DNA from: a bacterium
Lineage (GTDB): Bacteria; Myxococcota_A; Bradymonadia; UBA7976; UBA1532
Direction: 5' to 3'
Assembly: GCA_030426085.1 (NCBI GenBank)
Contig: JAUHYW010000003.1
Span: 207,969-271,968, forward strand
DNA: 64,000 nucleotides
In this document: one piece after another, positions 5,703-21,135 of the stretch
Layout: the number at the start of each line of letters is the position of its first letter
How positions within the stretch are numbered: the stretch's first letter is position 1
Position numbers and translations under genes: made by a program
The notes under the pieces: model-generated
What the model saw: the letters and a program-made list of their open reading frames with translations, nothing else
Told to the model about the DNA's origin: nothing
Database searches by the model: none

Positions 5703-8700
5703 TCAGTCGGGCTGCCGGTCCAGGTCGGCCCGCAGGCGCTCGATGATGATCGGGCGCAGCCGGGCGGGGGGGATGATCCGGTCGATCGAGCCCACCGCCT
5801 GCGCCCGCTCGACGGTGTGGATGCCGTCGAAGCGGGCGGCGAGCTCGGCGGTGGCCCGGGTGCGGTCGGCCGGCGCCCCGCCCAGCTCGGCGGCCCGGCG
5901 GCGCACCTCGCCGGCGAAGACCACCGCCGCCGCCGGCGCCCCGCCGATGACCGAGGCGTAGCTGCCGTCGAGCGCCAGCGCGGTGAGCTGGGGGTTGAGC
6001 CGCTTCGAAAACACCACGTAGGCCCCGCCGTGGTACCGGCTGAGCACCACGAACACGATCGGGCCGTCGAAGTTGACCACCGCCCGCCCCAGCTCGGCCC
6101 CGTACTCGAGCTGCCACCGGCGCAGCGACTCGGGGGAGCCGTCGAAGCCGCTGAGGTTGGCCAGCACCACCGCCGGCCGCCGCCCGCTCGCTGCGTTGAG
6201 CGCCCGGGCCAGCTTGCGCGCACCCTGGGGGTAGAGCGTGCCCCCGGAGAAGGTCTCCGGCCCGTCGGGGGTCGGGCGGCCGAGGCGGCCGAGGGGCTGG
6301 TTGTCGACCCCGATGACCGCCGCCGCGCAGCCGCCGATGCGGGCCTCCCAGGTGACGACGGTCTCGGCCTCGTGCATCGCCGCCCAGCGCTCGAGCGGGG
6401 GGTGGTCGGCGTCGACGAGCGCCGCCATCACCGGGCGCACCGCGAACGGGCGCTTGCGGTCGGGGTTGTGGGCCGCCGAGAAGATCTGCCCCACCGTCGT
6501 GAAGCCGTGCTCCGCGCTGGCCGGATAGGGGCTCTCGGTGATCGGCCGGTCGTCCGGGTCGCGCGTCCCGACCGCCGGCGGCCGGCGGGCCCCGGGCGGG
6601 ACGTGGGTCAGCGCGTAGTATCGATACAGCAGCCGCCACGCGCCCTCGAGGTCGTCGGCGTGGGCCTGGGCCTGCCCGTTGGGGCCCATGATCGCGGTGT
6701 AGCCCCCCAGCGCCAGGTCGTCGTCGGCCGAGACGCAGCCCGAGGCGTCGAGCGCCCGCTTGCCGGTGAGCACCATGCTGCCCCGGTCGGTCATCACCAG
6801 CAGGCCCCGGGTGTGCATCAGCATCGTGGCCTCGGCGTTGAAGTACGACTGCGCGCCGACGCAGATGCCGGGCACCAGCACGTTGATCTCGCCGCCGGCC
6901 TGGGTGAACTGCACGATGCGCCGCAGGGCGGCGGCGGTCCAGTCGAGGTTCTCGGTGCCGCTCTCCCAGTCGATGCGGGCCCCGGCGCTCACCGCGACCC
7001 ACTCCACCGGCAGGCCCCGCGCTTCGGCGAGGTCGAGCGCGGCGACGATGCGCCGGCACTCGGGCTCGGCGAGCGCGCCCATGCGCCGGGTCGGGTCGGA
7101 GAGCAGCAGCACCCGGCTGGGGGTCGGGCCCCGGGGGCCGTCGAGGCCCCGGGCGATCCCGAAGACCACCCCCACCGACTCGTCCCCCGGCCGCCGCCCT
7201 GGCGCGGGCGCCGGCCGGCCGGCGTCGTCGAGGCCGTAAGCGGCGAAGCGGCACGGGGGCATGCCGCTCGACTCGAGCAGCGTCACCGCCTCGGACGGGT
7301 GCACCAGCCCCCGGCGGCGGGCGCCGACCACCCGGGCCTGACAGGCGTCGAGCGGGGCCAGCGGCTCGATGGAGGCCGGGCGCAGCGGGCGGATGTCGAG
7401 CCGGCGGCCGCCCGGGCGGCGGCTGATGACCAGATCGTGCAGCGCGCCGACGCCGGCCGGGCCCACCATCCGGGGGTCGGTGAAGTGGGCCCGGACGACG
7501 ACCTTCTCCAGCCCGATGCGCAGCGCCGAGGCGGCCAGCCGCTCGACGTAGCCCTCGATGGCGTCGGGCAGGCGGGGCACCGGAGGCACGACCCGCAGCG
7601 TGATGCGGTTCCACTGCCAGCGGCGGCGGGGGTCGTGCTCGGCCCGGGCGGCCTCCATGGCGCGCACCGCGGCGTGGAACACCCGCTCGACGTGGGGCAG
7701 CCGCATCGGGGCCCCGGGGGTGCGCTCGAGGCTGCGGATCTCGCCGAACGCCAGCAGCCGCACGTCGTCCGGCGCGTCGCGGCTGGCGGCCCGGAAGAGC
7801 ACCACGTCGGGCGGGCTGGGCAGGCGGCGCAGGTCGAAGCGGGCCAGCCGGTCGAGGTCCAGGCGGCGGGCGCTGCTCGGCAGCACGTCGCGCCGGGTCT
7901 CGCGGCGGCGGCCGTCGGCCCGCAGCCAGCGGACGGCCGTGGGGCCCGCGCCCACCGCCACCAGGCACAGCGTGCCCCACGGGCCGGGCTGGATGGGGCC
8001 GGCCAGCAGCGCGTCGAGGGCCGCGGCCGGCTCACCGGACGCCGCGAGCACCAGATCGAGGCGGGCGAAGCGCTCCTGATGGCGGGCGGCGTCGAGCAGC
8101 GCCGGGACCTCCTCCGGGCGGCCGGTCACGCACAGCACCCGCTCGGGGCCCGCCCCGAAGCGGAAGGCCGTCCGGGGGCCCAGCGCGATCGGATCGGGCG
8201 CGGGGCCGTCCTCGACCCACTCCAGCCGGCGGGCGACGGCCTCGGCGGCCAGCGGGCAGCCGTCGGCGGCCCGGGGCGCGAAGCCGGGCACCAGCGACTC
8301 GGGCGCGGCGTGCACCGGGGTCCAGTCCGGCTCGCCGGGGCGGCCGTCGCGCAGGTGATCCAGCAGCCGGCGGGCCTCGGCCTGGGCCCGGGCCAGCAGC
8401 CGCCGGTGGGCCGGCAGCTCGACCCGGGTGTAGCGCACCCGATCGGCGGCCTCGGCCACCCGGGGGAACTGCTCGGGGTCCAGCGCGGCGAGCCGGTCGA
8501 GCAGGGCCACGTCGATCGGCGGGTCGTGCTGCGCCTCCAGCCGGATCAGGATCGCCTCGGCCACCGCCCGGGTCCGGGCCAGCCCCGCGCCCGCCCGGCG
8601 CAGGCGCAGCAGCCCGTCGTCCAGGGCCGGGCCCGGCTCCAGCGTGTCGAGGGCGTGGTGGGCCAGCGCCCGGGCCAGCCGCTCGGCGCGGTCCGGGTTC

Positions 8701-21135: not shown

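Follow-up and report, generated by a model that had tools for sequence, protein, structure and literature searches.

A three-gene array of a Myxococcota genome, predicted to form a self-contained type I lipogenesis unit

The gene array and the proteins it encodes

The minus strand of the window (the whole stretch of 64,000 nucleotides that was analyzed) carries three genes, arranged head to tail in the order FAS I, AcpS and carboxylase, with all three frames open. The genes and the domains recognized in their products are the following:

11290..21135, minus strand: FAS I, 3281 aa, a single chain with the order AT-ER-DH-MPT-ACP-KR-KS
20350..21024, minus strand: AT domain, GHSQG, Ser150 (PF16073, residues 38-257; PF22690, 200-262); motif in 14/14 aligned FAS I
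18382..19383, minus strand: ER region (Fas1-AflB-like helical), GGHHS 594-598 (PF08354, residues 585-918, 286.6 bits); GGHHS in 13/14, GGHHG in 1/14
16801..17094, minus strand: MaoC-type dehydratase, DHNPIH 1361-1366 (PF01575, residues 1348-1445); D and last H in 14/14
16141..16743, minus strand: malonyl/palmitoyl transferase (MPT), GHSVG, Ser1569 (PF00698, residues 1465-1665); GHSxG in 14/14
15079..15462, minus strand: acyl carrier domain, predicted phosphopantetheine Ser1931 (PF18325, residues 1892-2019, E 5.6e-4, below the family cut-off); Ser in 14/14
13711..13725, minus strand: ketoreductase motif Tyr2471/Lys2475, within the mycobacterial FAS I match over residues 2287-3269; also aligned to fungal and actinobacterial rows
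11701..12735, minus strand: ketosynthase, Cys2924/His3076/His3117 (PF00109 and PF02801, residues 2801-3145); triad in 14/14 bacterial and 3/3 fungal rows
10868..11293, minus strand: AcpS, holo-ACP synthase, 141 aa (NF000831, 154.7 bits, cut-off 124; PF01648 in a longer frame)
5703..10871, minus strand: single-chain acetyl/acyl-CoA carboxylase, 1722 aa (Pfam in a frame extended by 73 residues; homologues; fold)
9531..10859, minus strand: biotin carboxylase (BC), residues 5-447 (PF00289, PF02786, PF02785; PDB match)
9003..9185, minus strand: biotin carrier (BCCP), ESMKME, Lys590 (PF00364; motif position)
7101..9002, minus strand: central region, about 630 residues, ACC-central-like fold (model aligned with yeast and human ACC)
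5721..7100, minus strand: carboxyltransferase (CT), residues 1258-1717 (PF01039; best PDB matches are eukaryotic ACC CT domains)

The initial annotation had described three genes joined by two ATGA overlaps, and the coordinates, the strand and both overlaps (FAS I/acpS at 11290-11293 and acpS/carboxylase at 10868-10871) were confirmed. Its identification of a synthase, the enzyme that activates it and a one-chain carboxylase also stood, the genes encoding a complete type I synthase, an AcpS and a single-chain carboxylase in an operon-like array. The carboxylase gene starts with the ATG at 10871, and the 1795-aa GTG frame of the open reading frame list is an extension of the same gene. Third-position GC is 0.98 in the FAS I frame and 0.97 in the carboxylase frame, close to that of well-called neighbours. 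An antisense open frame of 3247 aa (11431-21174, plus strand) mirrors the FAS I gene and is probably a by-product of the 76% GC.

The FAS I motifs were read from an alignment of 14 bacterial FAS I rows, joined by 3 fungal rows for the KR-KS part, and we take the aligned residues to have the catalytic and carrier roles of their counterparts; in the dehydratase these are D1361 and H1366. The KR has no Pfam match of its own in FAS I and was assigned by alignment. A PDB sequence search returned mycobacterial FAS I best, in three stretches and with up to 2206 bits, followed by fungal alpha and beta chains, and the FAS I-specific helical ER domain (PF08354) occurred in only one of 14 control genomes, that of Corynebacterium. 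By this alignment, the protein keeps the motifs of all seven activities and is of the type found in the Corynebacterium-Mycobacterium-Nocardia (CMN) group and in fungi.

The carboxylase has the order BC-BCCP-central-CT of eukaryote-type ACC. The central-domain family PF08326 was not called in the window protein, and was called in relatives P0125 and P0127, which are 62% identical to it. The modelled BCCP-central-CT part (pLDDT 81.7) found the yeast ACC holoenzyme as best match in a structure search (E 3.4e-48) and aligned with human ACC1 over 953 residues (rmsd 4.9) and with yeast ACC over 964 residues (rmsd 5.4). The earlier proposal that this enzyme could supply malonyl-CoA fits the architecture as a predicted function, and AccA is absent from the genome. 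An enzyme of the same architecture, SACE_4237 of Saccharopolyspora erythraea, is described in a passage of PMC6491548 as an essential ACC supplying malonyl-CoA, and there also as carboxylating propionyl-CoA, so that the operon carboxylase may have a methylmalonyl-CoA role. A second single-chain ACC of the genome stands alone on contig C61 (L055 7732-14226); it is 62-63% identical to the operon copy, and closely related copies occur in family members that gave no FAS I match. Consequently, the operon copy is not the sole candidate source of malonyl-CoA.

Upstream, an AHSA1-family gene (21870-21469) lies 333 bases from FAS I. Downstream of the carboxylase, the same strand carries two genes without confident family (5157-5657 and 3809-5146), neither of which had a match in the 36 loci of FAS I-bearing relatives that were compared. 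More generally, ten genes neighbouring the trio in the window were compared with the flanks in Myxococcota relatives, the genus sibling (L039) included, and none recurred there; in the 36 loci only an HTH gene of Rhodococcus matched at E 1e-6 or better (43% over 60 aa). These flanks span a few kb in most loci, and about 10 kb upstream and 4 kb downstream in the sibling. Since the neighbours are not common to relatives, the shared unit is the three genes, within the flanks covered. No lipid-modifying gene was recognized among the window neighbours scanned. Elsewhere in the window, a 930-aa frame (44065-46857, minus strand) joins an acetate kinase to a following PTAC (phosphate propanoyltransferase), with about 320 unassigned N-terminal residues.

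The host genome and its other lipid genes

The window lies in contig C169 of a 10.15-Mb draft genome of 178 contigs (95% complete, 1.1% contamination). The initial annotation had inferred a Gram-negative host, and several markers agree with this as far as tested: MYXO-CTERM (50 matches in the genome, with 150 of 393 candidates scored, against 0 in 14 control genomes), LpxC in the genome, and two genes of the window, one for a sigma-54/FHA regulator and one PagL-like. A search of the assembly for a 16S gene, by which the contig could be placed inside or outside Actinomycetota, gave none; MYXO-CTERM points to Myxococcota, and the host is a member of that phylum and not an actinobacterium. The contig end cuts a 5S rRNA at 63928-64000 (minus strand), and an rRNA operon is the probable site of the break. 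The GC content varies little across the window (0.73-0.79 per 4 kb). Furthermore, the trio recurs on a contig of 304,935 bases in another genome assigned to the same genus, at 78, 80 and 74% identity in the best segments; the array is therefore not an assembly accident, and the earlier concern that 5.7-21 kb could be a contaminating contig is not borne out.

The genome also encodes dissociated synthase components. On contig C101, plsX, acpP and fabF adjoin, with no fabH, fabD or fabG between them, and contig C93 (L060 7647-14616) holds an overlapping row of FabZ-like protein, KS, double KS, FabD, KS and FabG; the latter row is a type II set with extra ketosynthases, beside a sigma-54 activator. 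A FabI-like protein (309 bits) is encoded on contig C10 and a further FabZ-like frame on contig C127, and FabI-like proteins of about 259 bits or more were present in all six genomes of the family (f1) that were searched. The best candidate for FabH, a KAS III-like protein on contig C81, is below the cut-off (172.9 against 292.1 bits), and no AccA was found in the genome (best 33.5 bits against a cut-off of 319.3). Of the genes for which a search elsewhere in the genome had been proposed, fabD/F/G/Z/I and accABCD, the fab set was thus found while AccA was missing. Because FabD, FabF, FabG, FabZ-like and FabI-like proteins are present, FAS I is an addition in this genome, which likely combines FAS I and FAS II, judging from its genes. 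The notion that the operon stands in for FAS II does not hold here, AcpP being encoded as well, and with a FAS II set and PlsX available FAS I need not be the main synthase. In mycobacteria the two systems work in tandem, according to excerpts of PMC5356441. A separate contig (C35; L113) carries two adjacent frames, one of 3153 aa that matches KS once and the FabA family four times, the other a KS frame of 2421 aa; together they look like a polyunsaturated fatty acid synthase.

Recurrence of the array and its phylogeny

FAS I of the fungal and mycobacterial type is usually assigned to fungi and actinobacteria. According to a passage of PMC9260719, a review of 2022, bacterial FAS-I belongs to the order Corynebacteriales, and we found no report of FAS I in Myxococcota among the open-access papers listed (PMC, judged by titles and the starts of abstracts). 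The trio in this phylum is apparently unreported so far; its parts are known, and the combination and the host are new.

The array is not a one-off but is widespread in Myxococcota, which the initial annotation could not see. PF08354 was found in 37 of 377 sampled genomes of the phylum, the window genome included, and in 25 of the 235 good ones. We compared the loci of 34 of the 36 relatives (G229 and G240 lay outside the comparison) and two named ones, L039 being taken as equal to the L086 contig, with which it agrees in length and identity. Among the 37 genomes, one locus could not be resolved (G324) and nine ended before AcpS. In all 26 loci that reach that far (the window and 25 others) AcpS lies directly downstream of FAS I, and the carboxylase comes next in 19 of 25 judgeable loci, the window included. 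AcpS without an adjacent carboxylase was seen in G037, G159, G234 and G024, with room of at least 6 kb, and in G276 and G270, with 1.5-2.1 kb. Junctions, from which the initial annotation derived a putative equal stoichiometry, differ between relatives: in 17 other Myxococcota genomes AcpS and carboxylase overlap by 4 bases in eight, have offsets of -1 and -8 in one each, and are separated by 15-57 bases in six and by 733 in one, G178 being cut by a contig end; small offsets are rough, since start codons in relatives were picked by rule.

Co-occurrence was scored in 80 genomes, 37 with FAS I and 43 taken as without it (20 reported so in the profile search and 23 drawn by handle number from the non-matches), a single-chain ACC being called by its match to a central-CT query at E 1e-30. 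AccA was over the cut-off in 17 genomes, single-chain ACC was present in 45, and both occurred in only two (G066 and G139; Fisher p 4.4e-5, or 1.7e-5 when G218, with a split AccA below the cut-off, is counted), although all such p values are only a guide because the genomes are related. Neither was found in 19. FAS I and single-chain ACC were weakly associated (26/37 versus 19/43, p 0.025). A carboxylase adjoined FAS I-AcpS in 17 of 19 judged genomes without AccA, the exceptions being G037 and G270, versus 2 of 6 with AccA (p 0.015). Four FAS I genomes had neither AccA over the cut-off nor a central-CT match (G044, G229, G242 and G270), and in G044 the front half of a carboxylase lies beside FAS I, cut by the contig end. 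LpxC was present in 9/37 FAS I genomes versus 21/43 others (p 0.037), and in the 80 genomes the presence of FAS I was not tied to the absence of FabH or FabD (p 0.18 and 0.82).

In ten of the 37 FAS I genomes (G015, G074, G105, G142, G206, G226, G229, G242, G270 and G300) no match in the FabD search surpassed E 8e-28, which is what the MPT domain of FAS I itself reaches; the match sits on the FAS I contig in G015, G105 and G229, and presumably does in the other seven. The same ten genomes, 67-97% complete, had no FabH over the cut-off (G226 came near, with 254.7 bits) and no LpxC. Judged by these gene searches, FAS I may be the only synthase in about ten relatives; the enoyl reductase search covered 15 other genomes.

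Trees of the KR-KS part were built from 56 gathered sequences, 54 of them usable (G277 and G142 gave no match), the careful tree having 43 rows after four long Myxococcota rows and seven near-copies were dropped; P0005 and P0006, nested with the window, were counted as Myxococcota. Fungi formed one clade and actinobacteria another. None of 200 bootstrap trees (0%) had a branch that sets the Myxococcota off from all other rows, and a constraint keeping them together was rejected (AU p 0.00046); the quick tree of all 54 rows agrees. The window and the actinobacteria fell in a group of 27 rows (100/100), apart from the Myxococcota nearest fungi, whose join with the fungi is weak (82/59). A tree of AT-ER-DH (32 rows, no fungi) recovered the same Myxococcota-actinobacteria group at 100/100, actinobacterial monophyly not being firm. 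In the tree of KS alone (34 selected rows, with four KS of the same genome as outgroup) Myxococcota rows branched deepest, first G024 and next G206/G300 (supports 92/65 and 91/91), and the fungi were nested apart from the actinobacteria (AU p 8e-6); the long outgroup branches make this root unsure. Overall, Myxococcota FAS I takes a position intermediate between fungi and actinobacteria in these sequence trees (AU p<0.001). With the root unsure, they suggest a Myxococcota source for both, with other bacterial donors possible since genome sampling was of one phylum. In a passage of PMC9260719, the fungal enoyl reductase is reported as the sister of CMN-FAS enoyl reductases.

The carboxylase tree (36 rows, with G044 left out for too little sequence) tells a different story of association. 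The operon carboxylases of the window and its sibling group (100/99) with stand-alone ACCs of their own family f1 and of order-mates in f2, the C61 copy included, and not with the carboxylases from other FAS I operons that were included. Adjacency to FAS I, taken as a label on this tree, changes five times, at least four changes being forced by well-supported branches, and these may be gains or losses of linkage. Another member of f1, G037, carries FAS I of another lineage, close to the one of family f27; its ACC, encoded on a contig other than that of FAS I, groups together with that of G062 with the f27 operon ACCs. The carboxylase tree and the differing FAS I tree indicate that, on more than one occasion, a trio probably arose anew or received a local ACC as a replacement.

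Proposed function and alternative readings

We consider the three overlapping genes of this Myxococcota genome a predicted self-contained unit of type I lipogenesis, with a probability of about 0.85, a reading that builds on the gene order and overlaps, the intact active-site motifs, the family placement and the recurrence of the trio in the phylum. The trio would be co-translated. Its carboxylase likely converts acetyl-CoA to malonyl-CoA, AcpS is predicted to place the phosphopantetheine arm on the FAS I carrier domain, and FAS I would turn acetyl-CoA and malonyl-CoA into long-chain acyl-CoA, the product being proposed by analogy with mycobacteria. Release is presumably carried out by the MPT domain. 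In the window genome the trio is probably a supplier of acyl-CoA, alongside a FAS II that would meet the demand for acyl-ACP (PlsX, lipid A), and in some relatives it is maybe the sole de novo synthase. The malonyl-CoA role is favoured because AccA is absent here, because single-chain ACC and AccA nearly exclude each other, and because adjacency is commoner without AccA. The coupling of the three genes is favoured by AcpS in 26/26 loci, by neighbours that are not common to relatives and by the at least four changes on the carboxylase tree.

Known systems share parts of this design. As in the mycobacterial fas-acpS pair, which excerpts of PMC5356441 place in one operon, a one-chain FAS I of equal domain order and motifs is encoded with AcpS, and the two genes are also adjacent in Rhodococcus; the window differs in its single-chain ACC, its Myxococcota host with LpxC and FAS II, and a FAS I outside the actinobacterial clade. 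That the array goes beyond the mycobacterial pair, as first noted, is upheld by this third gene. SACE_4237 is likewise a single chain of BC, BCCP, central region and CT, with a CT related to eukaryotic ACC (a passage of PMC6491548), whereas the window carboxylase is encoded with FAS I and AcpS; on our tree it stands on a branch apart from five actinobacterial and acidobacterial ACCs, SACE_4237 not being among them. Fungal FAS (alpha and beta) with cytosolic ACC is the same enzyme pair by type, with common KR-KS motifs, but the window FAS I is one chain instead of two and its AcpS is separate instead of a fused PPT domain. PF18314, also found in fungal alpha chains, occurs in many of the 120 FAS I relatives listed, and was not called in the window FAS I or its closest relative P0004. 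The genome's own FAS II has the same chemistry in dissociated proteins (C93, C101, C10 and C127), with no FabH over the cut-off, and the E. coli-type ACC (AccA/AccD) differs in the AccA subunit, which this genome lacks.

The strongest competitor, doubtful in our judgment, is a specialized secondary-lipid system in which FAS I and a private carboxylase make particular chains (storage lipid, or very long or methyl-branched acyl-CoA via methylmalonyl-CoA) while FAS II makes bulk membrane lipid. The FAS II set with PlsX, the second, stand-alone ACC on C61 and the use of propionyl-CoA by the homologue SACE_4237 (the same passage of PMC6491548) are what one would expect of such a system. However, no lipid-modifying gene was recognized among the scanned neighbours and no neighbour was shared in the flanks compared, the nearest relatives of solved structure are mycobacterial housekeeping FAS I, and about ten relatives have no FabD-type match above the level of FAS I itself. 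It is improbable that the carboxylase is instead a long-chain carboxylase (LCC) acting on FAS I products, as happens in mycobacteria (excerpts of PMC5356441), given that single-chain LCCs have an N-terminal CT and a C-terminal BC-BCCP (a passage of PMC6491548), the reverse of the window protein, and given the near-exclusion of single-chain ACC and AccA.

Recent import of the operon from Actinomycetota of the CMN type would suit the textbook distribution, the mycobacterial identity of the closest solved relatives and the adjacent FAS I and AcpS of Rhodococcus. It is nevertheless very hard to sustain: the window FAS I belongs, both in the KR-KS tree and in that of AT-ER-DH, to a five-row set (100/100) of Myxococcota and unnamed sequences apart from actinobacteria, the carboxylase falls together (100/99) with the stand-alone ACCs of its family and order, and the Rhodococcus locus showed no carboxylase next to FAS I. 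The phylogenetic check envisaged for the ketosynthase and enoyl reductase thus put the window FAS I outside the actinobacterial clade in the KR-KS, KS and AT-ER-DH trees alike. A contaminating contig or mis-binned actinobacterial or fungal sequence, conceivable in a 178-contig draft without a 16S match, is scarcely credible against the even GC, the same trio in the genus sibling, FAS I in 25/235 good Myxococcota genomes, relatives named Myxococcales and Bradymonadia, and a relative on a contig of 9,292,036 bases.

Beyond the self-contained lipogenesis unit itself, we advance a tentative scenario, at rather less than even odds, in which Myxococcota would be the reservoir of microbial type I FAS: fungal and actinobacterial synthases would derive from it by separate lateral transfers, FAS I-AcpS would have repeatedly captured a eukaryote-type single-chain ACC to become a portable lipogenesis unit, and several LpxC-less Myxococcota would live on FAS I alone. 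The evolutionary signal deserves proper study; with FAS I in about a tenth of 377 Myxococcota genomes and placed between the two groups, the origin of fungal FAS becomes testable. The trio also offers a minimal three-gene unit (synthase, activator and malonyl-CoA source) for lipid engineering. Finally, the finding may bear on members of the phylum whose FAS II is described as incomplete; among them are the cultured Bradymonabacteria, reported in a passage of PMC7460792 to be without FabB/F and FabI/L. Two genomes of another family of the phylum (G004 and G020, family f11; 94-95% complete) had neither a FAS I nor a FabD match, and are possible fatty acid auxotrophs.
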